From the NCBI GenBank assembly GCA_023954415.1, contig JAMLIB010000004.1, forward strand, positions 1 to 64,000: a DNA stretch of 64,000 bases, read 5' to 3'. This document shows positions 5,926 to 45,891 of this stretch, piece by piece; position 1 is the first letter of the stretch, and the number at the start of each line of letters is the position of its first letter. Below the pieces are notes generated by a model, which was given only the letters and a program-made list of their open reading frames with translations, was not told where the DNA came from and did no database searches. A program made the translations under genes and the position numbers. This stretch comes from Trueperaceae bacterium (GTDB lineage: Bacteria; Deinococcota; Deinococci; Deinococcales; Trueperaceae).

Positions 5926-7815
5926 ATGGCAAAAGCCGTAGGCATAGACCTCGGAACGACCAACAGCGTCATCGCGGTCATGGAAGGCAGCGAGCCCGTG
6001 GTGCTCGTGAACGCGGAAGGCAGCCGCACCACGCCGTCCGTCGTGGCTTTCAAGGGCGAGCAGCGCCTCGTCGGCCAAGTGGCCAAGCGCCAGGCCGTGC
6101 TCAACCCCAAGGGCACGCTCTTCGAGATCAAGCGTTACATCGGTCGCACGTGGGACGAGGTCAAGAACGAGGCCGAACGCGCCCCGTACGAGGTCGTGCG
6201 TGGCGACGACGGCGGTGTGCGCTTCGTCGTCGAGGGCAAGCAGTACACGCCGGAGGAGATCTCGGCGATGATCCTGCGCAAGCTCGTCGCCGACGCGAGC
6301 GAACGCCTCGGGTCGCCCATCACCAAGGCCGTGATCACCGTGCCGGCGTACTTCAACAACTCCCAGCGCGAGGCCACCCAGAACGCCGGCCGGATCGCCG
6401 GGCTCGAGGTGCTGCGCATCGTCAACGAGCCCACGGCGGCGGCCCTCGCGTACGGCCTCGAGAAGAAGGGCAACGAGACGGTCCTCGTCTTCGACCTGGG
6501 CGGCGGCACGTTCGACGTCTCCGTCCTCGAGGTCGGCGACGGCGTGTTCGAGGTCCGCTCGACCAGCGGCGACACGCACCTGGGCGGCTCCGACATGGAC
6601 TACGCCATCGTCCAGTGGCTGGCCGACGACTTCCAGAAGGAGTACAACGTCGACCTGCGCAAGGACAAGCAGGCCCTGCAGCGGCTCATCGAGGCGGCCG
6701 AGAAGGCCAAGATCGAGCTCTCCGGGCTGCCCGAGACGACCATCTCCCTACCCTTCATCGCCATGGACCCCGCCTCCAACGCGCCTCTCTACCTGGAGGC
6801 CAAGCTGACCCGCTCCCGCTTCGAGGAGCTCATCGCCCCGCTGCTCAAGCGCGTGCGCGGGCCGCTCGAGCAGGCGCTGGCCGACGCGAAGCTGAAGGCG
6901 TCAGACATCGACGAGGTCATCCTCGTGGGCGGTTCCACGCGCGTCCCGGCCGTCAAGAAGATCGTCAAGGACATCCTCGGCAAGGAGCCGAACCAGTCCG
7001 TCAACCCCGACGAGGTCGTGGCCCTCGGCGCCGCCGTGCAGGCGGGCGTGCTCACCGGCACCGTCGACGACATCGTGCTCCTCGACGTCACCCCCCTGAG
7101 CCTCGGCATCGAGACGAAGGGCGGCGTGTTCACCAAGCTGATCGACCGCAACACGACGGTCCCCGTGCGCAAGTCCGAGACCTTCTCGACCGCCGACCAT
7201 AACCAGACGACCGCGCCCATCCACGTGCTGCAGGGTGAGCGGTCCATGGCGAGCGCCAACAAGTCGCTCGGCCGCTTCAACCTCGAGGGCATCCCGCCCA
7301 TGCCGGCCGGCATGCCGCAGATCGAGGTAACTTACGACCTCGACGCCAACGGCATCCTGCACGTCACGGCCAAGGAGAAGTCCACCGGCAAGGAAGCCAG
7401 CATCACCATCCAGAACACCACGACCCTGAGCGAGGACGAGGTGGAGCGGATGGTCAAGGACGCCGCCGCCAACGCCGAGGCCGACCTCAAGGCGAAGGAG
7501 CTGGCCGAGGCCAAGAACCAACTCGACGGCCTCAGGCTGACGGCGAGCAAGACGCTCGAGGAGGCCACCAGCGCCACGCCGGAGCAGAAGAAGCCCGTCG
7601 AGGACCTCATCGCCGAGGCGCAGCAGGCGCTCGGCTCCGAGCTCACCACCAAGGAGCGCCTGGAGAGCATCGGCCGCGACCTCGGCGACAAGCTGCAAGC
7701 CTTCGCCCAGGCAGCCCAGGGCGGCGCGTCCCAGCCGGACGCGGGTCCGTCGGGAGACGACCAGGGGCCTGCCGGCGACGACGTCATCGACGCGGAGTTC
7801 AAGCCCGCCGGTTGA
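5926..7815 (+). CDS. dnaK: Molecular chaperone DnaK (Hsp70)
   Basis: A full-length 629-residue Hsp70. The actin-like ATPase domain begins with the phosphate loop [10 protein letters not shown] (residues 6-15) and contains [19 protein letters not shown] and [11 protein letters not shown]. The interdomain linker [11 protein letters not shown] leads into the substrate-binding beta domain, then a helical lid and an acidic tail ending DDVIDAEF. The sequence closely follows the Thermus/Deinococcus type, including the FEIKRYIGR block. A GAGGAG ribosome site at 5911-5916 fixes the ATG. It binds hydrophobic stretches of unfolded proteins in an ATP cycle driven by the DnaJ and GrpE proteins encoded just downstream. 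Confidence 0.98.
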
Positions 7816-7841
7816 GGCGCGAGGCGCATGCCGCCGGTCGA

Positions 7842-7877
7842 GCGAGGCCTGGTCATCTGCACGCGGCCAGGCCTCGC
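7842..7877 (+). terminator. Intercistronic hairpin after dnaK
   Basis: GCGAGGCCTGG at 7842-7852 pairs perfectly with 7867-7877 around a 14-nt loop. There is no U-tract, so it is probably a partial terminator or a processing/stability element that leaves dnaK more abundant than grpE-dnaJ. Confidence 0.55.
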
Positions 7878-7945
7878 CGTTAACGTCATGAGCGGCCGGC
7901 GACGCGTTCCCCCGAAGGACGAGGTTCGACGAGAGGAGCAGTGAC

Positions 7946-7969
7946 ATGAGGAACGGCGATCCAGCATGA
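7946..7969 (+). CDS. Seven-codon upstream ORF coupled to grpE
   Basis: ATG at 7946 opens a micro-ORF encoding MRNGDPA. An AGGAG site at 7934-7938 sits 7 nt upstream, far better placed than anything before the grpE ATG. Its TGA (7967-7969) overlaps the grpE start in an ATGA arrangement. It probably recruits ribosomes for grpE by termination-reinitiation; the peptide itself shows no recognisable feature. Whether it is translated cannot be decided from sequence. Confidence 0.45.
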   Translation: MRNGDPA

Positions 7970-8571
7970 GAACCGATCAGGACGAACGCACGAGCACGGC
8001 CGGTTGGGAGCAAGCGTCCTCGGACCGGGAAAGCCAAGAGACCACGCAGGCGGATGCCCAGGACACGGAGGCCGACATACTACGCACCGAGCTGAGACGC
8101 GTCCGCGAGAAGACCGCGGCACTGGAGCAGGAGCTCGTGGAGGCCAAGGACCGTGCGCTCAGGTACCGGGCCGAGATGGAGACGATGCGCCGTCGCCAGC
8201 AAGGCGAGCTCCAGCAGGCCCGCGATCAGGGCAAGGACGAGACCATCATGCCGGTGCTGGCGGTGTATGACGACCTGGAACGCGCCCTCGCCGCCGCGGC
8301 CTCGACCGAGGACGAGGGCGGCATCGTCGCGGGCGTGAAGCTCGTCAAGGAGAACCTCGAGCGGCAACTCGCCCACTTGGGCATCAGGCGCACGGGGACC
8401 GTCGGCGAGGAGTTCGACCCGCAGGTGCACGAGGCGTTGAGCACCGTTCCGTCCGGCCCGGGCCGGACGCCGGGTACCATCTTCCAGGTGTTCGAGCCGG
8501 GCTTCCTCCAGGGCGACCGGTTGATACGCGTTGCCCGCGTCGTCGTGGTGGCCGACAGCGACGCGAACTGA
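7966..8571 (+). CDS. grpE: Nucleotide exchange factor GrpE
   Basis: A 201-residue GrpE, the ADP-release factor for DnaK. A disordered, charged N-terminus (~1-40) is followed by the long coiled-coil (about 42-95, ELRRVREKTAALEQELVEAK). The beta-domain that contacts the DnaK ATPase lobe comes next, including the FDPQVHEAL motif and the final GFLQGDRLIRVARVVV segment. The ATG at 7966 has only a weak site of its own and overlaps the stop of the micro-ORF beginning at 7946, so its translation looks coupled. It lies between dnaK and dnaJ as expected for this phylum. Confidence 0.96.
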   Translation: MRTDQDERTSTAGWEQASSDRESQETTQADAQDTEADILRTELRRVREKTAALEQELVEAKDRALRYRAEMETMRRRQQGELQQARDQGKDETIMPVLAVYDDLERALAAAASTEDEGGIVAGVKLVKENLERQLAHLGIRRTGTVGEEFDPQVHEALSTVPSGPGRTPGTIFQVFEPGFLQGDRLIRVARVVVVADSDAN

Positions 8572-31339: not shown

Positions 31340-32476
31340 TCAGCGCCCGAGGGCCTCGCGCGCGTCGGCGTAGTCGGGGTCGAGCTCGAGGGCGCGCTCG
31401 AAGGCCCGCTTGGCGCTCTCGGCGTCAGTGGCGTTGTTCCGCCGCTGATAAGTCTTGCCGAGCCAGAAGAAGGCGTCGGCGCTCGGGGGCGGGAGGACGG
31501 CGCCCTGCTGGGCGTACTTGACGGCCTCGTCGACGCGCCCGACCGTCAGGTAGGCGCGCGCCAGGTAGGTGTAGACCGGCGGCAGGAAGACGGCGCCGTC
31601 GAGCGTGACGGCCTTCTCGAGCCAGGGCACGCTGCCAGCCACGTCGTCGCACTCGAAGAGGGCGATGCCGAGCTGGGAGACGGCGGAAACGGAGTCGGGA
31701 TTGAGGCTGGCGGCCTGCGACAGCTCGTACTCGGCGGTGCCGCAGTCGCCGAGCCGGTAGGCGATGTTGCCGAGGTTGTTGTGCGCCGTCCAGCTCGACG
31801 GGTCGAGGACGACCGCGCGGCGGAACGCCTGCAGAGCCAGTTCCAGTTCGTCGAGGTCGCGGTAGACGCGCCCGAGGTTCACCTGGACGGTGCTCTTCTC
31901 GTTGGCGGAGCGGGCCGTCGTGCTCGTGTCGGCGCTCACGAGGGTGGCGGCGCGCTCGAGGGTGGTGCGGGACCCGGCCAGGTCGCCGAGGAGGTACTGG
32001 ATGACGCCCTTGGTGTTCTGGACGCGCCAGTCGTCCGGCTTGGTGCGCTCGGCGCGCTGGATGGTGTCGAGCGCGTCGGCCAGGCGGCCGGAGTACGTGT
32101 TCGGGTCGGCCTGGTACTGGTTCTGGTAGGTGATGGCCAGGTAGATGTTGGCGTCTACGAGGTTGGAGTCGGCGGCCTGGGCCGCCTGGAAGGTCTCGAT
32201 GGCGGCAGGGTAGGCGCCCTGGCAGGCGAGGGAGCGCCCCTTGCCGACGAGGGCTACGGCGTTGTTCGGCTCGCCGCGCAGGGCTTCCTGGTAGAAGAAC
32301 TGGGCCAGCGCGCAGTCGCCCCTATCCAGGTAGAAGGCGCCGTTCTCTATCAGGGTCGAGGCGTCGAGGGTCTCCTGATCGGTCCCCTGCGCCGACGCGA
32401 AGCCGACGACCGCGACGAGCAGCGCGGCCAACGCGTGTTTGAGCGAGATGGTGCTCGTGAACCAGGTCCTGATCAA
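31340..32476 (-). CDS. Exported TPR-repeat protein
   Basis: A 378-residue protein with a signal peptide (~1-30, ending VVGFASAQ) and at least eight tetratricopeptide-type helical repeats filling the rest, for example SWTAHNNLGNIAYRLGDCGT and DAFFWLGKTYQRRNNATDAE. Such scaffolds mediate protein contacts in the periplasm; no partner can be named. The start is a TTG with GGAGGA 4 nt upstream, placing the signal peptide at the very N-terminus. It is followed by the hairpin that also carries the rpsB promoter. Confidence 0.85.
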   Translation of the reverse strand: MIRTWFTSTISLKHALAALLVAVVGFASAQGTDQETLDASTLIENGAFYLDRGDCALAQFFYQEALRGEPNNAVALVGKGRSLACQGAYPAAIETFQAAQAADSNLVDANIYLAITYQNQYQADPNTYSGRLADALDTIQRAERTKPDDWRVQNTKGVIQYLLGDLAGSRTTLERAATLVSADTSTTARSANEKSTVQVNLGRVYRDLDELELALQAFRRAVVLDPSSWTAHNNLGNIAYRLGDCGTAEYELSQAASLNPDSVSAVSQLGIALFECDDVAGSVPWLEKAVTLDGAVFLPPVYTYLARAYLTVGRVDEAVKYAQQGAVLPPPSADAFFWLGKTYQRRNNATDAESAKRAFERALELDPDYADAREALGR

Positions 32477-32838: not shown

Positions 32839-33807
32839 GTGAAGGGTCCATCCACAGCGCTGCTGGCCTGGTCGGCGCTCGTAGGCAACGCCATCGTCAT
32901 CCTGCAGGGCGCCGTCGTCCGCGGCACCGGCTCGGGGGCCGGCTGTGGGAGCCACTGGCCCACGTGCAACGGCACCGTCGTGCCCGTCGACCCGTCGCTC
33001 TCCACCCTCATCGAGTTCAGCCACCGCCTGCTCTCGGCCGCCGTCCTCGTGCTCGGGGCGTGGCTGCTCGTGAAGGCGCTTCGCGCCCGCAAGGAGCGGC
33101 CAGGTCTGGCGGCCTACGCGTCGCTCGCCTTCGGCTTCCTCGTGCTCGAGGCCCTCATCGGCGCCGCTACCGTCCTCCTCGGGATGACGGGCGAGAACGC
33201 CAGCGTGGCGCGCGGCGTATGGGTGGCCTCCCACCTCGTCAACTCGCTGCTCCTCATCGGCGCGCTCGCCGGGACGGTCGTCTACGCGCGGCGCGACGCC
33301 CCCGCCTACCCCTTGCGCCTCGGCGCACAAGCGAACCTGACGGTCGCGTTGACCGTCGGGCTCGGCGTCATGCTCCTCGTCATGTTCACCGGGGGCATCG
33401 CCGCCATGGGCAACACCATCTTCCCCTCCGAGTCGTTGGCGGCCGGCCTGCGCGCCGACTTCGACCCCGGTTCCCACCTGCTCATCCGCCTACGGGTGCT
33501 GCACCCCCTCATCGCCATCGGTGCCGGCACGTACCTGTTCGTGTCGCTGGGGCTGGCCTGGTGGCTCAAGCCCGTGCCGGCGGCTCGGCGCACGGCGCAG
33601 GCGCTGCTGATCGTCTACCTGGTCCAACTCGTGATCGGCGTGGCCAACCTCGCCTTCCTCGCGCCGCTGGCGGTGCAACTGCTTCACCTGAGCGTGGCCG
33701 TGGCGGCCTATGCCCTCCTGGCCGCCACGAGCATCCAGATCCTCGGCGGGCGACCGGTGCCTACGGCAGTGCCGCGGGGCGCCGCGATGGGGAGCATCGA
33801 AGGATGA
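32839..33807 (+). CDS. ctaA: Heme A synthase (COX15/CtaA family)
   Basis: A 322-residue, eight-helix membrane enzyme oxidising the C8 methyl of heme O to give heme A for aa3-type oxidases. Conserved histidines sit at helix ends (EFSHRLLS; VLHPLIAIGAG; LLHLSVAVAAY). The first periplasmic loop has the paired cysteines of the bacterial type (GAGCGSHWPTCNG), and both sequence halves are visible as an internal repeat. The start is a GTG. Its TGA overlaps the ctaB ATG (ATGA, 33804-33807), coupling production of the two enzymes. Confidence 0.93.
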   Translation: MKGPSTALLAWSALVGNAIVILQGAVVRGTGSGAGCGSHWPTCNGTVVPVDPSLSTLIEFSHRLLSAAVLVLGAWLLVKALRARKERPGLAAYASLAFGFLVLEALIGAATVLLGMTGENASVARGVWVASHLVNSLLLIGALAGTVVYARRDAPAYPLRLGAQANLTVALTVGLGVMLLVMFTGGIAAMGNTIFPSESLAAGLRADFDPGSHLLIRLRVLHPLIAIGAGTYLFVSLGLAWWLKPVPAARRTAQALLIVYLVQLVIGVANLAFLAPLAVQLLHLSVAVAAYALLAATSIQILGGRPVPTAVPRGAAMGSIEG

Positions 33808-34730
33808 CTACGGACGATGGTGATCACATGACGAACGCTCAGGAACACCCGAAGGCGACGATCCGCGACTACTGGATCCTCACCAAGCCGAAGGTCATCT
33901 CGCTCCTGCTGCTCACGGCCGTCGGCGCCATGTTCATCGCGGCGGGCGGCATGCCGAACTGGCTGGCGCTCCTCGGCATGCTCATCGGCGGCTTCATGTC
34001 CGCCGGCGCCGCCGGCGTCTACAACATGGTCTACGACGCCGACATCGACGTGAACATGAAGCGCACGGCCAAGCGACCGATGGTCAAGGGCTCCGTCACG
34101 CCCCGCAACGCGCTGATCTTCGCCGTCGCGCTGACCCTCCTGTCCTTCGCGGTCATCGCCCTGACGAGCAACGTGCTCGCCGCGCTGCTCTCCTGGGCGG
34201 GCATCGCCTTCTACGTCCTCATCTACACGATGTGGCTGAAGCGCAGCACATGGCAGAACATCGTCATCGGCGGCGCCGCCGGCGCCATCCCGCCGCTCGT
34301 CGGCTGGGCGGCCGTCACGAACGACTTGAGCCTCCTCGCCTGGATCCTCTTCGCGGTCGTGTTCGCCTGGACGCCCGTGCACTTCTGGGCGCTGGCGCTC
34401 ATGGTCAAGAAGGACTACGCCAACGTCGGCGTGCCCATGGCGCCGGCCGTGATCGGCGACAGGGCCACGGTCATGCAGATGGTCTTCTACACTTTCCTGA
34501 CCATCGTGCTGACCGTGCTGCCGTTCTTCTTGCACCAGTTCAGCCTCGCCTACTTCCTCGCCGCGCTCGTCCTCAACCTCGTCCTGGTCATGCGCATGGC
34601 GCGCGTCTTCATGGTCGTGCGGGCGGGCGGCACGGTCGACCGGGTCACGGCGCTGCCCCTCTACCTGTACTCCATGAGCTACCTGGCGCTGCTCTTCGTC
34701 GTGATGGCGCTCGACCGCGCCATCTTCTAG
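33804..34730 (+). CDS. ctaB: Protoheme IX farnesyltransferase (heme O synthase)
   Basis: A 308-residue UbiA-type prenyltransferase adding farnesyl to heme B. The allylic-diphosphate/Mg site is seen in NMVYDADIDVNMKRTAKRPM, and a second conserved loop contains WTPVHFWALAL. Nine hydrophobic segments fit the family. The start at 33804 overlaps the ctaA stop; a second ATG nine codons on is also possible. The product is the substrate of CtaA, so the pair performs both steps of heme A formation. Confidence 0.95.
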   Translation: MTTDDGDHMTNAQEHPKATIRDYWILTKPKVISLLLLTAVGAMFIAAGGMPNWLALLGMLIGGFMSAGAAGVYNMVYDADIDVNMKRTAKRPMVKGSVTPRNALIFAVALTLLSFAVIALTSNVLAALLSWAGIAFYVLIYTMWLKRSTWQNIVIGGAAGAIPPLVGWAAVTNDLSLLAWILFAVVFAWTPVHFWALALMVKKDYANVGVPMAPAVIGDRATVMQMVFYTFLTIVLTVLPFFLHQFSLAYFLAALVLNLVLVMRMARVFMVVRAGGTVDRVTALPLYLYSMSYLALLFVVMALDRAIF

Positions 34731-34767
34731 CCGTGGCCGCGACCGTGGTCGCCCGGAGGGGCGACGG

Positions 34768-35544
34768 ATGAGCTCCAAGCCGGTACTCCTGCGCGGCCGC
34801 TGGCTGGCCGGCCATGTGCTCGCGCTCGTGATGATCGGCCTGTTCGTCAACTTCGGCTTCTGGCAGCTCCGGCGCCTCGACCAGCGCAAAGCCAGGAACG
34901 CCGTCATCGAGTCGCGCATCCACCTTCCACCCCGGCCCCTCGCCGACGTGCTGGTGCCCGGTGCCGAGGTGCCGGAGTACACGGCGGTCACGGCGGTCGG
35001 CACGTTCGATCCGGAGCACGAGGTGCTCCTGCGCGGGCGCTCGCTCGACGGGCGACCGGGTTTCAACCTGCTCACGCCGCTCGTGCTCGACGACTCCGAC
35101 GGCGAGCGTAGCGGGAGCGCCGTGCTCGTCGAGCGTGGCTGGGTGCCTTACGACCGCGACTCGGTGCCCGTCACCGACGCCCTGCCGCCCGTAGGCAGCG
35201 TGAGCGTGACGGGTGAGCTCAGGGCGCCGCAGACGCCCCCGACGGGGCCGCTGGCCGCCATCGCCGCCCACGATCCGCCCGAGGGCGCCCTGGTGCAGAG
35301 CTTCTACGTGGACGTCGCGCGGCTGGCGCCGCAGATGCCCTACCCGCTCGTCGACGCCTACGTAGTGCTGCGGCAGCAGGCGCCCGCGAACCCGCAGCGG
35401 CTCCCCGAGCCGCTCCCGCCCATCGAGATGGGCGAGGGGCCGCACCTGGGCTACGCGCTGCAATGGTTCGGCATGGCGCTCGTCGGCGCCGTCGGCTACG
35501 TGTTCCTGCTCCGCTCCACGGCGCGCCAGAAGGCTCGAGCCTAG
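34768..35544 (+). CDS. SURF1-family cytochrome oxidase assembly protein
   Basis: A 258-residue membrane protein with helices at both ends (~11-30 and ~232-250) and a soluble domain between them. The SURF1 landmarks are present: FWQLRRLDQRKARN after the first helix, then VTAVGTFDPEHEVLLRGRS, a VLVERGWVPYDR segment, and HLGYALQWFGMALVGAVGYV at the end. SURF1 proteins deliver heme A to oxidase subunit I, which matches its place after ctaA and ctaB. The oxidase structural genes are not in the window. Confidence 0.9.
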   Translation: MSSKPVLLRGRWLAGHVLALVMIGLFVNFGFWQLRRLDQRKARNAVIESRIHLPPRPLADVLVPGAEVPEYTAVTAVGTFDPEHEVLLRGRSLDGRPGFNLLTPLVLDDSDGERSGSAVLVERGWVPYDRDSVPVTDALPPVGSVSVTGELRAPQTPPTGPLAAIAAHDPPEGALVQSFYVDVARLAPQMPYPLVDAYVVLRQQAPANPQRLPEPLPPIEMGEGPHLGYALQWFGMALVGAVGYVFLLRSTARQKARA

Positions 35545-36826: not shown

Positions 36827-37411
36827 TCAAGCCCGCTCGATGCCCGTAGCCACCACGGCGGCGCCGTGCAGCTCGAGCCGTACCCGCGGCAGCGGCAGGA
36901 CGGCGGGGCCGCTCACCGCGCGACCGCCGCGCATGGGATCGAACACGCTCAGGTGGCATGGGCAGGTGAGTTTCGGACCGTCCGTCGCGTAGTTGAAACC
37001 GAAGTCGATGGCGTCGACGTCGCGGTTGAGGACCACGATGCAGTGCTGGTGCGTGCAGATGCGACTGAAGGCCGCCAGGTGGGCGCTGGGCGCTCCCACG
37101 CCGCTGTCGACGGTCAGGCCGCCGGCGACCGGGCCGGGCAGGCGCACTGCCAACGCCGGCGCGGGCCCGCCGTTCGGCCCGCCGGAGGGCAGCTCGAAGG
37201 GGACCTCGTCCCACACGTTCGCGAACGCAGCCACGGTGCCGACCGCGACGTCGGGAAGCCGGTCGAACTCCGGCTCGGAGACCGGGTCGCGCTTCAGGAA
37301 GTGGACGTTGATGGCCTCGTAGACGCCGTAGCCGCCGCCGAGGAGCGCAGCGAGCACGGGCACGCGCCACAGCCACTTGATCAGCTCGCGCCTGGAGAGC
37401 GGCTGCGGCAC
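36827..37411 (-). CDS. Rieske [2Fe-2S] protein with Tat signal
   Basis: A 194-residue exported iron-sulfur protein. The N-terminus has a twin-arginine signal (SRRELIKW) followed by one hydrophobic helix that may remain as an anchor. The cluster ligands are in the two Rieske boxes, CTHQHC (~residue 121) and CPCHLS (~150). It resembles bc-complex Rieske subunits, yet no cytochrome b gene adjoins it; instead it is last in the cytochrome c maturation gene run, 5 nt after the CcmI-cytochrome fusion. The start is a GTG with a weak ribosome site, suggesting coupling. Confidence 0.88.
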   Translation of the reverse strand: MPQPLSRRELIKWLWRVPVLAALLGGGYGVYEAINVHFLKRDPVSEPEFDRLPDVAVGTVAAFANVWDEVPFELPSGGPNGGPAPALAVRLPGPVAGGLTVDSGVGAPSAHLAAFSRICTHQHCIVVLNRDVDAIDFGFNYATDGPKLTCPCHLSVFDPMRGGRAVSGPAVLPLPRVRLELHGAAVVATGIERA

Positions 37412-37416
37412 GGTCG

Positions 37417-38937
37417 CTAGAGCTCGCTCTGGGAGAGGACCTGGGTCACGTACGCCACCACGGCGTCGACCTCCTCCGGCGTCAGCGCCGCCTGGAACGC
37501 GGGCATCATGCCGCGGCCGAAGCGCACGGCGTCTCGCACGTTGGCCTCGTTGGCGGCGCGCGGGTTGCCTGCCAGCCGGGCGCCCATGCCGCCCTCGCCC
37601 CCTTGGCCGTGGCACTCGACGCAGTTGGTGGAGAAGACCTGCCTGCCGACGACGGCGGCGCTCGTGGCGTCCGCTCCGCCAACCGCGGCGCCGCTCGCCT
37701 GCGTGCGGGCCGATTCGGCGAGGGCCTTGGCCGGCGCGCCCAGCTCGGGGCCGACCAGCTCGGCGTAGAGGTCGTACGTCCGGGCCGCCTCCTCCCAGGC
37801 GCCCGTCTGGGCGTAGGCGTCGGCGAGCGTCATGACGGCGTCGGGCTCGAGCGCGGCCACGCCGCCTGCCGCCACGGCCGCGCGCTCGATGGCGCCGACG
37901 GCGTCGCTCGGCCGGCCGGCGACGTAGAGGAGCTGGCCCGTGCGAGCGAGGGCCCGCGGCTGGGTCGGGTCGTGATCGGTGAGGACCTGGAAGTAGCTCT
38001 CGACGGCCTTCTGCGGCTCGCTCGCCTCCCAGTAGGCGTCGCCGAGGGCGAGGAGGTTCTCCTCGGAAGGGTCGGCGAGCACGGCCGCCTGGAGCGGGCG
38101 CACGCGCTCGATGAGCTCGATGCGCCGCTGGGCCGTCGGCTCGGCCGCGCCGTCCGGGGTGGCGGCGAACGCCGTGAAGGCGTCCTCCGCGCGCTCGAGG
38201 TCGCCGCGGGCGAACGCGACCTCGCCGAGCAGGTAGAGCGTCTCGGCGTCGTCCGGTTCGGCGCCGCGGGCGAGCTCGAGCCAGCCCTGGGCCTGCGTCA
38301 GGTCGCGCTGCAGGGCGAGGATGGCGAGGCGCTTGTAGGCGGCGCCCGGTACAGGGCTCAGCTCGTCGACGATGCGCCGGTAGGTCGTCTCGGCCTCGTC
38401 GAGGCGTTGCAGGCCCAGGTAGATGTCGCCGAGCGCCAGCAGGTTCTCGGCGGACGGGTCTGCCTGCGCGGCGCGCTGAGCCGCCTGCAGCTGCTGGGCC
38501 ACGTCCACGTCGGTCGTCGTGATGGTGTCGGTGCTGCTCACGCGGGGGAGGACGTAGGTCGGGACGGCGGCGGCGAGCAGCAAGAAGGCGCCGAGCACTA
38601 CGACGGCGCCGACGGGGACGCGCTTCGCCTCGGCCCGCTCGCGCTTCGGTGCCCTGCCCGCGAGCGCGGCCTCGCGCTCGTCGATGGCGGCGAGGACCTT
38701 GGCGGCCTTCGCCTCGTAACGCTCGTGCAGCTGCCTGCGGCGCTCCGCCGGCAGGTCGACGCGCGCGTCGAGCTCCTGGATGGCGCGCAGGAGAGCGGCC
38801 TTCTCCTCGTTCAGGTCGACGAGCTGCGGGTCGCGGTCGTCGGGGAGCCGGTCCACCTGGTCGGGAGCCAGGAGCGGGATGGCGACGTAGAAGAACGCGA
38901 TCAGCACGAGGAGCCCTATGACGATGGTGGTAAGCAT
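37417..38937 (-). CDS. CcmI-like TPR protein fused to a C-terminal cytochrome c domain
   Basis: A 506-residue fusion. Residues 1-135 match the CcmI N-terminus: helix 1 (~3-24), a cytoplasmic coiled loop (EEKAALLRAIQELDARVDLP), and helix 2 (~107-130). Residues ~140-410 are TPR repeats, the region that binds apocytochrome tails in CcmI. Residues ~425-506 form a class I cytochrome c domain with C439-V-E-C-H443 for covalent heme and a GMMPAF methionine ligand. So a heme-ligation chaperone carries a cytochrome that itself needs the system. It lies between ccmH (3-nt gap) and the Rieske gene. Confidence 0.87.
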   Translation of the reverse strand: MLTTIVIGLLVLIAFFYVAIPLLAPDQVDRLPDDRDPQLVDLNEEKAALLRAIQELDARVDLPAERRRQLHERYEAKAAKVLAAIDEREAALAGRAPKRERAEAKRVPVGAVVVLGAFLLLAAAVPTYVLPRVSSTDTITTTDVDVAQQLQAAQRAAQADPSAENLLALGDIYLGLQRLDEAETTYRRIVDELSPVPGAAYKRLAILALQRDLTQAQGWLELARGAEPDDAETLYLLGEVAFARGDLERAEDAFTAFAATPDGAAEPTAQRRIELIERVRPLQAAVLADPSEENLLALGDAYWEASEPQKAVESYFQVLTDHDPTQPRALARTGQLLYVAGRPSDAVGAIERAAVAAGGVAALEPDAVMTLADAYAQTGAWEEAARTYDLYAELVGPELGAPAKALAESARTQASGAAVGGADATSAAVVGRQVFSTNCVECHGQGGEGGMGARLAGNPRAANEANVRDAVRFGRGMMPAFQAALTPEEVDAVVAYVTQVLSQSEL

Positions 38938-38940
38938 GCC

Positions 38941-39453
38941 TCAGCCGTCCTCGCCGCTCTCGTCGCCCGTGTCGGTCCGGGCGGGGCCGGCCGCGGCGCC
39001 GGCGAGGGCCGCCCTGACCCGTTCCAGGTCGGCCTCGCTCGCCGGCTCCGTCTTGGCCGAGGCCGCCAGCCACCGCCTGGTCATGCCTACGACGACGACG
39101 ACGGCCGTCGCCCCGATCAGGACGGGTAGCAGCCAGACGAGGAGGTGGACGCCGCGCTTGGGCGGGTCGAGGAGGATCCAGTCGCCGTAGCGCTCCTGGA
39201 AGAACGCGTAGATCTGGGCGTCGCTCAACCCCTCGTCGATCTTCTCCTGGATGAGGCCGCGCATCTGCTGGGCGATCTCGGCGCTGGAGTCCGCGACGCT
39301 CTCGGAAGTGCAGACCGGGCAGCGCAGGTTGCGCGAGATGTCGAACGCGCGCGAGCCGATCTGGACGCTCGGCGCGGTCGCGGCGTCCTGGGCGCTCGCC
39401 AGGGCCGCGACGGCGAAAGCGGCGGCGAGCAGCACGCGGGCGAGGGTCGCCAC
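38941..39453 (-). CDS. ccmH: Cytochrome c maturation protein CcmH
   Basis: A 170-residue thioredox-type ligation factor. A signal peptide (~1-22, ending LASAQ) precedes the hallmark LRCPVCTSESVADS, whose CxxC reduces apocytochrome disulfides. The three-helix domain and a C-terminal membrane helix (VHLLVWLLPVLIGATAVVVVVG) follow. The start is a GTG just inside the sequence after ccmG, and the frame upstream of it is shadow. It functions with CcmF and the CcmI-like protein encoded next. Confidence 0.92.
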   Translation of the reverse strand: MATLARVLLAAAFAVAALASAQDAATAPSVQIGSRAFDISRNLRCPVCTSESVADSSAEIAQQMRGLIQEKIDEGLSDAQIYAFFQERYGDWILLDPPKRGVHLLVWLLPVLIGATAVVVVVGMTRRWLAASAKTEPASEADLERVRAALAGAAAGPARTDTGDESGEDG

Positions 39454-39458
39454 GCGCC

Positions 39459-40010
39459 TCACCTGAGCAGCGCTCCGAGCTGCTGGTCGAGCACGGCGGC
39501 CGTCACGGGCCCGATGTGCTTGGCCACGACCTTGCCGCTCGCGTCGATGAAGAACGTCTCCGGTACGCCGTACAGCGCCCAATCGACACCCACGAGGCTG
39601 TCGTTGTCGAGCACGTTGGGGAAGCCGAGGTTGAAGCGGGCTATGAACGTGCGCCCCTCGTCGCGCTTGTCGCGGTCTTGCGTCTGGATGCCGACGAACT
39701 GCACGCCCTGCGGCCCGTAGGTCTGCCACGCCTGTTGCAGTACCGGCGCCTCGTCGTAACAGGGCAGGCACCACGACGCCCAGAAGTTGATGACGAGCGG
39801 GCGGCCGACGTGCTCCTGCAGCGAGAAGGTCTCGCCGTAGTCCGGCCAGTACCGCTCGTAGAGGGGCAGTGTGAAGCTTGGCGCCGGCTTGCCGATGAGG
39901 TTGGACGTGATGTTGCGGTCGTCAGGGTTGCCCCGCAGGAGCCCGAAGGCGAAGAGCGCGCCGATGGCCGCGACGACGAGGGCGATCAGGGCGATGCGGC
40001 GAAGCTTCAT
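39459..40010 (-). CDS. ccmG: Thiol:disulfide interchange protein CcmG/DsbE
   Basis: A 183-residue membrane-anchored thioredoxin-like protein. One N-terminal helix (~5-25) anchors a periplasmic redoxin domain with WASWCLPCYDEAP (active-site CxxC near residue 80), and the conserved cis-proline region is YGVPETFFID. It passes electrons from CcdA to CcmH and apocytochrome c. Its ATG overlaps the ccmF stop as ATGA (40007-40010). Confidence 0.94.
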   Translation of the reverse strand: MKLRRIALIALVVAAIGALFAFGLLRGNPDDRNITSNLIGKPAPSFTLPLYERYWPDYGETFSLQEHVGRPLVINFWASWCLPCYDEAPVLQQAWQTYGPQGVQFVGIQTQDRDKRDEGRTFIARFNLGFPNVLDNDSLVGVDWALYGVPETFFIDASGKVVAKHIGPVTAAVLDQQLGALLR

Positions 40011-42010
40011 GCCGGCGCGCCCTCGCGCTTCTCGCCGGCGACGGCCCGGGCCGGCACCGTCCTGCGGCCGCCGCCGAGCGAGTAGGCGGTGCCGAGCAGG
40101 AGGATGGCGCCGCCCACCCAGATCCAGGTGACGAGCGGGCTCTTGACGACGCGCAGCACGACGAACGTCGTGTCGGGGCCGACGCTGCTGTTCAGGTTCA
40201 GGTAGAGGTCGTGCGTCGCGGTGTAGTAGACGGCGGGGGTGGGGACCGTGCGGCCCGCCTCCCCGAAGAGGTTGAGGCGCGGGCGCAGGGTGGTGACGGG
40301 CCTGCCGCCGCGCGTCACCTCGATGACGGCGCCGGCGCTGATACGAGCTGGCGTGCGCTCCATGAAGCGGTCGACGGCCGTCAGCGTGTAGCCGGAGAAC
40401 TCGGCGCTGCTGCCGAAATCGAGCCGGATCTGCTCGTCGACCCGGTAGCCGGAGCTGAAGGCGACGCCGACCGCGACGATCACGACGGCGAAGTGCACGA
40501 TCATGCTCCCGACACGCCGTCGGCTCTCGACCGCGTACGAGCGGAGCACCTGCAAGGCGCCGCGGTTGGCGAGGCGGAGGCGCGGCGCGAGGGCACCGGA
40601 CAGGAGCAGGTAGAGGCTCATGAGGTTGTAGCCGGCCAGCGCGACGGTCAGCGCCGGGTAGACCTTGTGCACCCCGAGCAGCCACGCGAGCGCGCCGGAG
40701 ACGACGAGGGCGGCCGTGAGCAGCGCGAGGTTGCGCGCGAGGCGCTGCTGTTCGGCGCGGCGCCACGGCAGGAGGGGGCCGATGCCCATGAGTAGGAGCA
40801 CGAGCATCCAGAGGGGCAGGGTCGTCTGGTCGAAGAACGGGGCGCCCACCGTGACCTTGTCGCCCGTGAGGGCCTCGACGATCAGAGGGAAGAGGGTGCC
40901 GAGCAGCACGGCGGCCGTCAGGGTGACGAAGAGGATGTTGACGCCGAGGAAGCTGCCCTCGCGGCTCACGACGGAGTCCAGGTCGGCGCGGTCCCTGACG
41001 TCGTCCCAGCGCAGGGCGAGCAACCCGAACGCGGTCAGCGTCACGAGCAGGAAGAAGACGAGGAACGCCGGCCCGACGGGCCCGTTGCCGAACGCGTGGA
41101 CGGAGGAGACCACGCCGGAGCGGGTCAGGAACGTGCCGAGGATCGAGAGCGAGAACGTGGCGACGATGAGCAGCACGTTCCACGGCTTGAGCATGCGCCG
41201 CCGCTCCTGCACCTGCACGCTATGGATGAACGCGGTCGCGGTCAGCCACGGCATGAAGCTCACGTTCTCGACGGGGTCCCACGCCCAGTAGCCGCCCCAG
41301 CCGAGCACCTCGTAGCTCCACCAGCCGCCGGCCACGATGGCGCCGGAGAGGAACCCCCAGCCCGTCAAGGTCCAGCGGCGCGTCTGGGCCATCCACTCGG
41401 TGCCGGGCCGGCGCGTGATGAGCGCGGCCATGGCGTAAGCGAACGGCACGGTGAGCCCGACGAAGCCCAGGTACATGAGCAGCGGGTGCACGGCCATCAT
41501 CCAGTGGTTCTGGAGCAGCTCGTTGGGGCCGGGGCCGTCGAGCGGCGGGAACGCCACGACCTTGAACGGGTTGGCGATGAACGCGAGCACGCCGAGGAAG
41601 AAGACCTGGACGGCCTGCATGATCGAGATGGCGTACGGACGCAGCGGGCTCAACGGGGCCGTGACGGCGAGCAGCGCCGTGTAGCCCGTGAGGAGCCAGG
41701 CCCAGAGGAGGATCGAGCCCTCCAGGGCGGCCCACATAGTCACGACCTTCACCCACGTGGGAGAGGCGATGCGCGAGTGCCCGGCCACGTAGGCGACGCT
41801 GAAGTCGTTCGTGAGGAGCGCGGCTTGCATCACGACGACCGCGGCCGTGGCGAGGATGAAGCCCGCGACTGCGGCGAGCCGGGCGGACGTCTGGAGGCGG
41901 GCGTCGCGCCGCATGGCGCCGACGATGCCGGCCACCGCGCCGTAGACGGCCAAGCCGAACGCCAGGAAGACGCTGGCGCTGCCCAGGGGACCGAGCTGCA
42001 GGTCGAACAT
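40007..42010 (-). CDS. ccmF: Heme lyase subunit CcmF
   Basis: A 667-residue membrane protein with about 14 helices and the tryptophan-rich heme-handling WWD motif WGGYWAWDPVENVSFMPWL. Another conserved segment, WAALEGSILLWAWLL, precedes it. CcmF receives heme from CcmE and joins it to apocytochrome c with CcmH. I take the ATG at 42010; an in-frame TTG directly before it is possible. It is overlapped by ccmG and lies 13 nt after ccmE. Confidence 0.96.
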   Translation of the reverse strand: MFDLQLGPLGSASVFLAFGLAVYGAVAGIVGAMRRDARLQTSARLAAVAGFILATAAVVVMQAALLTNDFSVAYVAGHSRIASPTWVKVVTMWAALEGSILLWAWLLTGYTALLAVTAPLSPLRPYAISIMQAVQVFFLGVLAFIANPFKVVAFPPLDGPGPNELLQNHWMMAVHPLLMYLGFVGLTVPFAYAMAALITRRPGTEWMAQTRRWTLTGWGFLSGAIVAGGWWSYEVLGWGGYWAWDPVENVSFMPWLTATAFIHSVQVQERRRMLKPWNVLLIVATFSLSILGTFLTRSGVVSSVHAFGNGPVGPAFLVFFLLVTLTAFGLLALRWDDVRDRADLDSVVSREGSFLGVNILFVTLTAAVLLGTLFPLIVEALTGDKVTVGAPFFDQTTLPLWMLVLLLMGIGPLLPWRRAEQQRLARNLALLTAALVVSGALAWLLGVHKVYPALTVALAGYNLMSLYLLLSGALAPRLRLANRGALQVLRSYAVESRRRVGSMIVHFAVVIVAVGVAFSSGYRVDEQIRLDFGSSAEFSGYTLTAVDRFMERTPARISAGAVIEVTRGGRPVTTLRPRLNLFGEAGRTVPTPAVYYTATHDLYLNLNSSVGPDTTFVVLRVVKSPLVTWIWVGGAILLLGTAYSLGGGRRTVPARAVAGEKREGAPA

Positions 42011-42023
42011 CAACGCGCCCCCG

Positions 42024-42452
42024 TCAGCGTAGGGACTCCTTGAGCGCCTCTACGTCTATCGGCTCGCCGTCGGCGGGCGGATGGTAGTCGCTGCTGTGCT
42101 TCACGAGCAGGTTGTCGCCCACGAAGACGCCGTCGTGGAAGCGCCCCTCGATGACCACCCCGCCGTTCTCCTGGAACAGGTCGGGGGGCGCGCCGTCGTA
42201 CTGGACCGTGTAGTCCTTGAGGTGATCCGTGATCTGGAACGTGAGATGGAGGTTCGCATCGTCGAACCGGACGCTGCCGGCCTGCACCAGCCCGCCGAGG
42301 CGGACGCGCTTGCCCTCGAAGGCGGCGGTGTCGCGGGCGTACTCGCTCGGCAGGATGAAGTAGACGAGCGAGGACTGCAGGGCCTTCGAGATGAGGAAAC
42401 CGGCCACCGCGAGGACCGCGACGCCCAGGAGGGCATAGACGATCTTCTTCAT
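42024..42452 (-). CDS. ccmE: Heme chaperone CcmE
   Basis: A 142-residue periplasmic heme carrier. The N-terminal anchor helix is at ~4-22. The OB-fold domain contains FEGKRVRLGGLVQAGSV, and the covalent heme-binding histidine H119 lies in VKHSSDYHPP with Y123 four residues on, the classic H-x-x-x-Y form. Heme is attached here by CcmABCD and then handed to CcmF. Its ATG overlaps the ccmD stop (ATGA). Confidence 0.96.
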   Translation of the reverse strand: MKKIVYALLGVAVLAVAGFLISKALQSSLVYFILPSEYARDTAAFEGKRVRLGGLVQAGSVRFDDANLHLTFQITDHLKDYTVQYDGAPPDLFQENGGVVIEGRFHDGVFVGDNLLVKHSSDYHPPADGEPIDVEALKESLR

Positions 42453-42580
42453 CCGCTCTTGCTCTTGGCCCTGGCCTGGCGCTCACGCCAGCCCAGGTAC
42501 ACGAGGTAGCCGCCGTAGGCGACGAGGACTTCCAACCAGGCGATGGCGACCCACGTCCAGTGGCTGAGGTTACCGGACAC
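42449..42580 (-). CDS. ccmD: Heme exporter small subunit CcmD
   Basis: A 43-residue single-helix protein that is easy to overlook. It begins with GTG, reads MSGNLSHWTWVAIAWLEVLV, spans one membrane helix rich in Tyr and Trp (…YGGYLVYLGW), and ends in a basic tail (RERQARAKSKSG). This is the typical CcmD form. GGGAGGT lies ~6 nt before the start. It overlaps the ccmC end by 11 nt and the ccmE start by 4 nt. CcmD helps release holo-CcmE from the CcmABC complex. Confidence 0.88.
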   Translation of the reverse strand: MSGNLSHWTWVAIAWLEVLVAYGGYLVYLGWRERQARAKSKSG

Positions 42581-43304
42581 TGACTACCTCCCGCGCTACG
42601 CCCTTGACCGAGTCGAAGGTCTTGTCGTCGGCCAGCGCGAGCCGGCCGATGCGTATGCGTTCAGAGATGAAGTAGACGAAGACCATGGCGCCGCCGAGGA
42701 CGTTGATGAGGAGCACCCTGACCATCGCCGGGTCCATGGTCACGCCGCTGCCGTCCAGGTTGATGCTCTTGGCGGGATGCAGCGTCCTGAACCACTCCGC
42801 CGCGAGGTAGTTGAAGGGCAGGCTGACGAGCACGACGAGCATGATGACCGCGCTCACGCGGGCGCGCCGCTGCGGGTCCTCGATGAGGGCGCGGACGATG
42901 AAGTAGCCGACCACGAGGGCGACCATCAGGGCGGTGAGCGTCAGCTTGGCGTCCCACGTCCAGTACGTGTTGAGGGTCGGCTTACTGTACGTCATGCCGC
43001 CTACGACCGTGAGGACGGAGTACAGGAGGGCGGCCTCGGCCGTGCCTTGCGCGCGCACGTCGTCGACGGCGCGGCCGCGCCACAGGTAGAGCATGCCCCA
43101 GAACGCCGAGACGGCGACGGCGGCGAAGCCGATCCAGGCGACGGGGACATGCGCGTACATCACCCTGATGAGGTCGCCCTGGTTGACGTCGGGGGGGCTC
43201 ACGATGAGGGCGGCGTAGAGGCCGACGCCGACCACCGCGAGCGTGACCAGGCCGAAGACGGTCAACCAGCGCGGTCTTCTCGTTCTGCCGGAGGTGTCAG
43301 TCAT
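42570..43304 (-). CDS. ccmC: Heme exporter/handling protein CcmC
   Basis: A 244-residue six-helix protein of the heme handling family. The Trp-rich WWD motif is present as NTYWTWDAKLT in a periplasmic loop, and conserved histidines flank it (MYAHVPVAW; LHPAKS). CcmC presents heme to CcmE. A 128-nt gap, with no promoter I can defend, separates it from ccmB, and it overlaps ccmD downstream. Confidence 0.95.
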   Translation of the reverse strand: MTDTSGRTRRPRWLTVFGLVTLAVVGVGLYAALIVSPPDVNQGDLIRVMYAHVPVAWIGFAAVAVSAFWGMLYLWRGRAVDDVRAQGTAEAALLYSVLTVVGGMTYSKPTLNTYWTWDAKLTLTALMVALVVGYFIVRALIEDPQRRARVSAVIMLVVLVSLPFNYLAAEWFRTLHPAKSINLDGSGVTMDPAMVRVLLINVLGGAMVFVYFISERIRIGRLALADDKTFDSVKGVAREVVSVR

Positions 43305-43432: not shown

Positions 43433-44116
43433 TCAATCATCCACGACGAAGTGGAAGATGCTGGCGCATACGACCAGGTAGACGAGGTCGAAGCCGCCGA
43501 GCAGCTGCACCCAGGAGAGGGCGAGGGGCACGTCGGCGCTGCCCATGAGCGCGGCCTCGGTCGCCCTGACCGCACCGAGCATGATGGGCACGATCACCGG
43601 GAACATGAGCACGGGGAGGAGCGCCTCGCGCGCCTGCAGGTTCGCCGTGAGCCCGGCGTAGAACGTGGCGATGATGGCCAGCCCGAGCGTGCCGAGGAGC
43701 AGCACGAGTCCGAGCAGCCACCAGGCGCTCGCCGGCGCGACGGCCCCGTAGAGGCCAAGGGCGATGGGCAGCATGAGCACGCCGAGCACGAAGAGGTAGA
43801 GCCAGCTCGCGGCGAGCTTGCCGAGGTAGACGGCCGCCCGGGACGCCGGCAGGAGGAGGAGCTGCTCGAAGGCCCCCTCCTCGAGGTCCGCCTGGAAGCT
43901 CTGGGCGGCGGCGATGACGCCGGCGAACGCCAGGGCCACCCACAGGACGCCGGGCGCCGCGCTACGCATGAGCTCCGGATCGCGCCCGAGCCCGAAGGCC
44001 ATCATCACGAGGGTTATCGCCGAGAAGAACAGGGTGGCCACCGTGGTGGCGCGCGAGCGGAGCTCCTGGCGGAAGTCCTTGCGCGCGACGGTCAGGGCCG
44101 CGATCAGGTCGTTCAT
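43433..44116 (-). CDS. ccmB: Heme exporter permease CcmB
   Basis: A 227-residue permease with six helices. The N-terminus has the CcmB-typical VARKDFRQELRSR amphipathic stretch, and FQADLEEGAFEQLLLLPASR follows the second helix. It forms the CcmAB ABC complex, which releases heme-loaded CcmE. The ATG at 44116 overlaps the ccmA stop (ATGA); the longer upstream frame is shadow. Confidence 0.93.
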   Translation of the reverse strand: MNDLIAALTVARKDFRQELRSRATTVATLFFSAITLVMMAFGLGRDPELMRSAAPGVLWVALAFAGVIAAAQSFQADLEEGAFEQLLLLPASRAAVYLGKLAASWLYLFVLGVLMLPIALGLYGAVAPASAWWLLGLVLLLGTLGLAIIATFYAGLTANLQAREALLPVLMFPVIVPIMLGAVRATEAALMGSADVPLALSWVQLLGGFDLVYLVVCASIFHFVVDD

Positions 44117-44898
44117 GCCCCGAACATCCGCAACGTCCCGCCCTTGAGCTCGATGACGGCGTCGGGGCCGAGGTGGTCGCGGTCGGACTCGTGCGAGGCC
44201 ATGAACACGGTGCGGCCCCTGGCCTTCGCGGCAGCGACGCACTCGTCCATGAGGCGCTTGCCGAGGTCGTCGAGCGCGGCGTACGGCTCGTCGAGGAGCC
44301 ACAGGTCGGGGTCGAGGAGGAGCAGGCGCGCGAGGCCGAGGCGCTTCTTCATGCCGCTCGAGTAGGTCCTCACGAGCTTGTCGGCCGCCTGCTCGAGGCC
44401 GACCCGCCCGAGCGCCGCGAGGTGCGTCGCCTCGGCGCGCGCCTTCCCGACCTCGGTTGGTTCCGCCTGCCCGGCCTCTGCGCGCGCGGAGCGACCGCGG
44501 CTGCCGCTCAGCTCGCGCAGGTCGTGACGCCCGGCCTCTGCGCGCGCGGAGCGCCCTGGCCGCCGCGGGGTGAGGGCGATGGCCAGCTCGAGGTTCTCGC
44601 GCCCGGTGAGCAGCGGGAAGCTGCCACCCATGACGGTCAGGAGCCCAAGCCGCGCCCTGGCCGCTGCGGCTTCGCGGGTCAGGTCGTGGCCGAAGACGAG
44701 CGCCTGGCCGCCGGCCGGTCTCAGGCGCGTGGCCAGCAGCCGGAGGAGTGTGGTCTTGCCCGTGCCGTTCGAGCCCCGCAGCACGACGAGCTTGCCGGGA
44801 GCGACCTCGAGGTCGATGCCCCGCAGGACGTACTCGCCGCCCATGCGCCGCGTGACTCCCTTGAGCTCGATAGCGAGTCCGTCCGCGCCGCCGCTCAT
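44113..44898 (-). CDS. ccmA: Heme exporter ATP-binding protein CcmA with an in-frame repeated insert
   Basis: A 261-residue ABC ATPase. Walker A is GSNGTGKTTLLR (~residue 41), the signature is YSSGMKKRLGLAR, and Walker B is LWLLDEPYAALD. Compared with usual CcmA (~200-210 residues) it carries extra sequence between the Q-loop region and the signature. This includes two copies of GRSARAEAG 20 residues apart in an Arg/Ala/Glu-rich segment. It powers the CcmB permease. Both ends overlap their neighbours by ATGA. Confidence 0.92.
   Translation of the reverse strand: MSGGADGLAIELKGVTRRMGGEYVLRGIDLEVAPGKLVVLRGSNGTGKTTLLRLLATRLRPAGGQALVFGHDLTREAAAARARLGLLTVMGGSFPLLTGRENLELAIALTPRRPGRSARAEAGRHDLRELSGSRGRSARAEAGQAEPTEVGKARAEATHLAALGRVGLEQAADKLVRTYSSGMKKRLGLARLLLLDPDLWLLDEPYAALDDLGKRLMDECVAAAKARGRTVFMASHESDRDHLGPDAVIELKGGTLRMFGA
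44469..44553 (-). repeat. 25-bp direct repeat inserted in ccmA, period 60 bp
   Basis: An identical 25-bp sequence (core CTCTGCGCGCGCGGAG) occurs at 44469-44493 and 44529-44553, exactly 60 bp apart, so both copies are read in the same frame. The core is nearly palindromic. The pattern suggests either a local duplication or a small palindromic element tolerated inside a coding sequence. Confidence 0.8.
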
Positions 44899-45599
44899 AG
44901 CTTGTCGAGGAGCCAGGCGGGCGTGATGTTGATGAGATAGCCGTTCAGGACCGTGTACAGGCCCGTCACCATCAGGATGCCGGCCACGAGGAGGAGCGCG
45001 CCCGCCACCCGCTCGACCCACGGCAGGAAGCGGCGGAAGCGCCGCGAGAAGCGCATGAACGGGTCGAGGAGGAGCGCGGCGGCCAGGAAGGGCACGGCGA
45101 GGCCGAGCGCGTATACGGCGAGCAGCCCGACGCCGGCGGTCAACGTGCCCGCGGCGCCCGCCATCGTGAGGATGGCGCCGAGGATCGGACCGATGCAAGG
45201 CGTCCAGCCCGCCGCGAACGCCATGCCGAGGAGCACGGCGCCCAACGGCGTGCGCGTCTCGCCCGAGTACTGCATGCGCGTGTCGCGGTAGAGCCAGGGC
45301 AGCTTGATGACCCCGAGCATCACGAGCCCGAAGAGGATCACGAGGACGCCGCCCCCGAGGGTGAGGGCCCGCTGGTTGGTGCGCAGGAGCGAGCCGAGCG
45401 CGCTGGCGCCGGCGCCTAACGCGATGAACACGAGCGAGAAGCCCAGCACGAAGGCCAGGGCGTTGCGGATGAGGACCGCCCGCTTGGCCTCGGCGCTGCC
45501 GCCCACGTACGCCAGGTAGGACGGCACGAGGGGCAGCACGCAAGGCGAGAGGAACGAGAGCACGCCCGCCGCGAACGCGACGCCGATGCCCGGCGTCAT
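44895..45599 (-). CDS. ccdA: Thiol-disulfide transporter CcdA
   Basis: A 234-residue six-helix DsbD-type membrane protein moving reducing equivalents from cytoplasmic thioredoxin to the periplasm. The redox cysteines lie in SFLSPCVLPLVPSYLAY (helix 1) and AAGWTPCIGPILGAIL (helix 4), the paired PC motifs of the family. It feeds CcmG and is first in the ccd-ccm gene run, with its stop overlapping the ccmA start. The 292-nt upstream gap has a minus-strand TATCAT (45742-45737), about 138 nt before the gene, without a good -35; on plus, TAACAT at 45827-45832 may serve the binding-protein gene. Confidence 0.93.
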   Translation of the reverse strand: MTPGIGVAFAAGVLSFLSPCVLPLVPSYLAYVGGSAEAKRAVLIRNALAFVLGFSLVFIALGAGASALGSLLRTNQRALTLGGGVLVILFGLVMLGVIKLPWLYRDTRMQYSGETRTPLGAVLLGMAFAAGWTPCIGPILGAILTMAGAAGTLTAGVGLLAVYALGLAVPFLAAALLLDPFMRFSRRFRRFLPWVERVAGALLLVAGILMVTGLYTVLNGYLINITPAWLLDKL

Positions 45600-45891
45600 G
45601 GCGCTCCGGCGGCCGCGCGGCGCAGGGCGCGCCGGCGGGCGCCTACCGGCCCCCGGGCGCGCCGCGGCTCGTGCGCCGGTCCGCGCCGGGGGTGGGCGGG
45701 TCTCGTGGAAAAGGTGGGGTCCATGGCGGCCCAAGCATGATACGAGACCCTCCGTCATCGGGGCGAGGACATTACTACCTCGCGGGGCTTCCCCAGCGGG
45801 TTCCCTCGCCGCCGGCGCGCGAGGGGTAACATGACGCCCTGACATTCTCACGGACCCGTCGCGCTGCGGCCGTCCGACCCGTGGAGGCTTC

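Follow-up and report, generated by a model that had tools for sequence, protein, structure and literature searches.

Why should a protein that helps to build cytochromes c carry a cytochrome c of its own? This question is raised by a reading frame in the window, by which we mean the whole 64,000-nucleotide stretch of Trueperaceae DNA that was analysed. According to the described plan, CcmI is encoded after ccmH and has two transmembrane (TM) helices with a cytoplasmic region between them and a periplasmic TPR region. Its TPRs bind the C-terminal helices of apocytochromes, and it sits together with CcmF and CcmH (PMC3884852). Fusions of CcmI with CcmH have already been described (PMC3601427). 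In the open-access literature we found no description of a CcmI-cytochrome fusion or of a ccm-linked Rieske protein, and we regard the absence of a prior description of the CcmI-cytochrome c fusion as provisional. The retention of this fusion and of a dedicated Rieske protein over almost the whole Deinococcus-Thermus phylum suggests an electron path that is built into the cytochrome-building machine itself.

One gene for a CcmI and a cytochrome c

The first-pass annotation had read the frame as a CcmI-like assembly factor fused to a complete cytochrome c domain with a CxxCH motif and a Met ligand, and both halves of this reading are borne out (Table 1). The gene lies directly after ccmH in a ccm operon, and hydropathy shows two hydrophobic N-terminal helices in relatives from every family. 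Between the TM helices the AlphaFold2 model has a charged helical hairpin, which would lie on the cytoplasmic side; this model was computed from an input alignment of three near-identical sequences and mainly resolves the TPRs, the cytochrome and TM parts being poor. The TPR region is matched by TPR_16 (E=1.5e-17) and by other TPR families at about aa 147-400. The Pfam model TPR_CcmH_CycH (PF23914) matches 22 of the 25 aligned members, at best with E=1.5e-12 and the window's protein itself with E=0.0068 only. The CcmI part of E. coli CcmH aligns with the fusion protein at profile level (hhalign, E=2.9e-5), and no CcmI model is among the NCBIfam matches listed for it. Genomic context together with moderate sequence similarity thus points to a CcmI. 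The C-terminal domain is matched by Cytochrome_CBB3 (E=6.8e-15, aa 430-497) and Cytochrom_C (E=1.4e-7) and has the CxxCH motif and the downstream Met of a class I cytochrome c. Both are nearly invariant among the relatives; the domain has therefore probably been kept as a heme protein.

Table 1. Features of the ccm operon in the window (positions in the window; aa numbers refer to the fusion protein).
Feature	Position	Strand	Basis
ccm-linked Rieske [2Fe-2S] protein, Tat-like N-terminal anchor (SRRELIK), GTG start	36827..37411	-	Pfam Rieske E=2.5e-6
CcmI-TPR-cytochrome c fusion protein, 506 aa	37417..38937	-	ORF ATG..TAG, Pfam, relatives
Class I cytochrome c domain, aa 428-500	37438..37656	-	Cytochrome_CBB3
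Predicted axial Met478	37504..37506	-	nearly invariant M-P; context RGMMPAF
Heme-attachment motif CVECH, aa 439-443	37609..37623	-	sequence; nearly invariant in alignment
TPR array, aa 147-416, two blocks	37690..38499	-	Pfam, AlphaFold2 (pLDDT ~90), Foldseek TPR matches, alignment
N-terminal CcmI module: TM helix ~aa 1-29, cytoplasmic helical hairpin ~37-94, TM helix ~104-133	38539..38937	-	hydropathy of close relatives; helices in model
CcmH, LRCPVC motif	38941..39462	-	Pfam CcmH 1.3e-33
CcmG/ResA-type thioredoxin, WCLPC	39459..40010	-	Pfam search and sequence
CcmF, four heme-ligand His and two conduit Trp conserved	40007..42013	-	sequence comparison
CcmE	42024..42452	-	Pfam CcmE 8.6e-30
CcmD candidate, 43 aa, overlapping ccmC and ccmE	42449..42580	-	form and position only
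CcmC	42570..43304	-	domain matches
CcmB	43433..44110	-	translation, synteny
CcmA ATPase, start approximate	44113..44880	-	translation, synteny
CcdA-type thiol-reductant transporter, start approximate	44895..45600	-	translation, synteny

The GC content by codon position (about 0.8/0.5/0.96) keeps its pattern over the whole frame. In comparisons with four relatives, each of the three segments (TM, TPR and cytochrome) gives a dN/dS of less than 0.5. The frame is therefore one gene, and its cytochrome part is under purifying selection. In relatives at 25 to 95% identity, and in about 100 genomes, the fused frame is unbroken. That a frame error merged two genes, as the first-pass annotation had considered, or that a missed stop or an assembly artefact did so, is in view of these findings next to impossible.

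Conservation of the fusion

A first search with the fusion protein gave a match in 61 of 61 genomes. In a profile search of the phylum set, which includes Oceanithermus profundus (G046), 108 of the 111 Deinococcus-Thermus genomes were matched at E<=1e-20. A domain search over Deinococcota had been proposed in the first-pass annotation, and separate genes in the relatives would have spoken against its reading; the parts are instead fused in nearly all genomes, the match extending through the cytochrome domain in 101 of the 106 genomes with a placed main match. In three of the others (G015, G024 and G032) the match stops where the contig does; G015 has a fragment of the cytochrome on another contig, together with the Rieske gene. 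The cytochrome domain is absent from the remaining two, Truepera radiovictrix (G017) and its congener G025. In all five families of the order examined the same three-part protein is encoded after ccmH. Its TPRs form two blocks in the family of the window and a single one in the remaining four, and the linker before the cytochrome domain varies in length. A local or recent fusion is ruled out by this phylum-wide occurrence. A search of plasmids for relatives gave no match.

The CcmI of T. radiovictrix (6978-8426 of its locus) has a short Ala/Pro-rich tail in place of the cytochrome c domain; the CcmI of G025 likewise ends in a short tail, and in both genomes the Rieske gene comes immediately after. 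In a tree of the protein minus the cytochrome, Truepera is nested in the window's family among domain-bearing members, and the lack of the domain is therefore a loss. Truepera CcmI, like that of the congener, is thus a natural loss mutant of the cytochrome domain.

One further genome of the same family, G019, which is 96% complete, has neither CcmF nor the CcmI-cytochrome fusion nor the ccm-linked Rieske, and also no ResB, yet its sequence gives 11 matches to cytochrome c domains and has three loci with cytochrome b. Its lack of maturation genes may be due to a contig that is missing or to a maturation system not yet recognised; replacement of System I by System II was rejected since ResB was not found. 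The genes normally share one operon and one missing contig could explain their absence, and G019 was therefore left out as evidence for co-loss.

The ccm operon and its Rieske protein

The fusion gene is second to last in a complete ccmABCDEFGHI operon. The order on the minus strand is ccdA, ccmA, B, C, D (candidate), E, F, G, H, fusion gene and Rieske gene, the last of which is an addition to the first-pass annotation. The packing is close: CcmH ends 3 bp ahead of the ATG of the fusion gene, and the GTG of the Rieske gene lies 5 bp past its TAG. The CcmF of the window is canonical, with 38% identity to E. coli CcmF, a conserved WWD motif and retained TM-heme and P-heme histidines. The only solved CcmF relative that we found is that of T. 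thermophilus (6ZMQ).

Beside the operon, on the opposite strand, lie genes named from their translations as CtaA (COX15), CtaB (COX10) and a SURF1-like protein (32839-35544), so that heme A and oxidase assembly genes adjoin those for cytochrome c assembly. A second TPR protein (31340-32476, 378 aa) has a secretion signal, is kept near ctaA in two related loci (L033 and L034) and also matches the CcmH/CycH TPR model (E=2.6e-13). It is possibly a second CcmI/NrfG-like helper.

An ortholog of the ccm-linked Rieske protein is present in 107 of the 111 phylum genomes. Both genes are placed in 104 genomes, and in 96 of these the Rieske gene comes directly after the fusion gene, at 264 bp or less (median 39 bp). 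The pattern is broken in G038, in five members of genus g28, which have the Rieske gene on another contig, and at two contig breaks. The two cluster boxes are separated by 25-27 residues in the ccm-linked Rieske, versus 12-13 in most bc-type Rieske proteins. In a tree the protein groups apart from the bc-type Rieske proteins of the same phylum, with moderate support for the ccm group (87/79). Two loci of family f5 (L111 and L112) have a Rieske gene beside cytochrome b whose product nevertheless shows the long spacing between the boxes and whose position in the tree is the nearest to the ccm group. In the Thermaceae-type ccm-linked Rieske the Ser of box 2 is replaced by Gly (CPCHFGAF), which may lower the potential.

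None of the genes downstream of the Rieske gene in the window resembles cytochrome b. Searches for cytochrome b gave no detectable match in the genome of the window (G000), the closed genome of T. radiovictrix, G025 and G010, and these four genomes keep the ccm-linked Rieske all the same. In them it therefore does not serve a bc complex, and a part in such a complex is excluded for the operon and for the genomes without cytochrome b. The same four genomes have, close to cytochrome c genes, an NrfD/ActC-like gene that is probably part of an alternative complex III-like system, and the pair of fusion protein and Rieske is for this reason probably not needed as complex III. Oxidases are present in them as well.

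A putative electron relay in heme ligation

The fusion protein is best classed as a variant CcmI. We tentatively favour, with a confidence that stops short of calling it probable, the reading that its cytochrome and the partner Rieske act together as a high-potential electron relay on the CcmFHI heme-ligation complex. The N-terminal two-helix module would anchor the protein in the CcmF-CcmH-CcmI complex, the periplasmic TPRs would bind apocytochromes, and the C-terminal class I cytochrome c would be matured by the same Ccm machine. Once matured, this domain would be a membrane-tethered high-potential carrier working with the adjoining Rieske, in the manner of cytochrome c1 and its Rieske, minus cytochrome b. 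Class I cytochromes with His/Met ligation and Rieske clusters usually have positive potentials. The fused cytochrome and the Rieske can therefore not alone reduce the TM heme of CcmF, and for the fused cytochrome a role as acceptor or outlet of electrons is more likely than one as donor to CcmF. Through this TM heme (-147 mV) CcmF has been proposed to reduce the heme delivered by CcmE, and the donor to it is stated to be unknown (PMC10663686). We consider the most likely direction to run from the heme-handling site to the Rieske, from there to the CcmI cytochrome and on to the pool of soluble cytochrome c and oxidase. The pair could take the second electron of a quinol oxidation at CcmF; alternatively, it could maintain the proper redox state of heme or thiols.

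The occurrence of the fusion in five families, the near-invariant CxxCH and Met, the linkage of the Rieske, its separate grouping, its retention in genomes without detectable cytochrome b and the retained heme histidines of CcmF are consistent with such a relay. A precedent is given by NapB, a cytochrome c from which CcmG of Shewanella can obtain electrons (PMC8782879). Against it count Truepera and its congener, which have lost the cytochrome domain and still keep CcmI and Rieske, so that the domain is not strictly needed, as well as the unlinked Rieske of G038 and the five g28 genomes. The first-pass annotation had offered three ideas on function. Local electron transfer fits best since a dedicated Rieske is coupled to the fusion gene; the fit is poorer for sensing of heme supply or an obligatory internal check, given that the operon of Truepera has been kept without the cytochrome domain.

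A bolder version of the relay, which we regard as improbable, would make the CcmF complex of Deinococcota a small bc1-like quinol oxidase. One quinol electron at CcmF would enter the low-potential TM heme and reduce the CcmE-delivered heme, and the other would pass via the Rieske to the CcmI-fused cytochrome c and the oxidase pool. If this were true, heme attachment would be driven as the bc1 complex drives its low-potential chain, and the missing redox partner of CcmF would be named.

It is also conceivable, although rather unlikely, that the pair is respiratory, with the cytochrome and the Rieske borrowing CcmI as an anchor and the ccm operon for co-expression, unrelated to heme ligation. 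The two proteins would then connect the oxidases with the quinol or cytochrome pool by electron transfer. They do resemble a bc complex in two of its three redox subunits, oxidases are present in 8 of the 8 genomes checked, and the genes for CtaA, CtaB and SURF1 lie just downstream. However, the pair is also kept where a real bc complex with its own Rieske and cytochrome c exists elsewhere in the genome, the genomes without cytochrome b have the alternative-complex-III-like gene instead, and the linkage that extends over the phylum is with ccm. Even a purely respiratory pair would still be a Rieske and a cytochrome c working without cytochrome b.

The cytochrome could instead be a tethered self-client: built in as a substrate or pseudo-substrate, it would fill the TPR groove with its C-terminal helix. 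As a gate, a folding template or a quality check it would have to be matured or displaced first, and only then could other apocytochromes be handled. The TPRs of CcmI and NrfG bind the C-terminal helices of apocytochromes (PMC3884852; PMC12285233), and the chain ends with the cytochrome domain and its terminal helix, which follow a linker of variable length. This idea leaves the conserved Rieske unexplained, and Truepera lost the domain with the operon kept; moreover, the cytochrome stays in the four families in which the TPR array is down to one block. We therefore think it quite unlikely.

We give very little credence to a role on the thiol side, in which the cytochrome domain would exchange electrons with the disulfides of CcmG and CcmH. 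The genes ccmG and ccmH are directly upstream of the fusion gene, and in dsbD mutants of Shewanella CcmG can receive electrons in this way from the cytochrome c NapB; the hemes of NapB, however, are described as bis-His ligated and of low potential (PMC8782879), versus the predicted His/Met ligation here. A CcdA-type reductant transporter is furthermore encoded in the same operon, so that the normal thiol route is present.

Returning to the relay attached to CcmFHI, the cytochrome c in CcmI and the dedicated Rieske of this phylum are natural candidates, linked genetically, for a part in the electron transfer of heme ligation. This is of relevance since, by the published account, no electron donor of CcmF is known (PMC10663686). 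Tractable organisms are at hand in Thermus thermophilus, the source of the CcmF crystal structure, and in Truepera, with its natural loss of the cytochrome domain.

Comparison with known systems

The fusion protein is like the CcmI (CycH) of Rhodobacter capsulatus and Pseudomonas aeruginosa in its position in the ccm operon, its TM helices and its TPRs. In the Pseudomonas protein the region after the TPRs is an alpha-beta domain (PMC3884852), whereas here a complete cytochrome c follows and then a Rieske gene. E. coli CcmH is likewise a CcmI fusion and its TPR part can be aligned with ours, but there CcmI is fused to the thiol oxidoreductase CcmH, and a cytochrome domain is lacking. NrfG is comparable in that it partners a heme lyase as a TPR protein and binds its client by the C-terminal helix (PMC12285233), again without a cytochrome domain. 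NapB of Shewanella oneidensis, acting on CcmG, is alike in being a c-type cytochrome that gives electrons to the Ccm machine (PMC8782879). It is, however, a separate bis-His cytochrome of periplasmic nitrate reduction that acts as a suppressor and, unlike the domain of the fusion protein, is neither fused nor dedicated. The closest parallel for the pair as such is cytochrome c1 and the Rieske protein of bc complexes, where a membrane-tethered cytochrome c is likewise encoded beside a membrane-anchored Rieske; the pair described here differs in that its operon has no cytochrome b gene, its Rieske forms a separate subfamily and its genes are located in a ccm operon.
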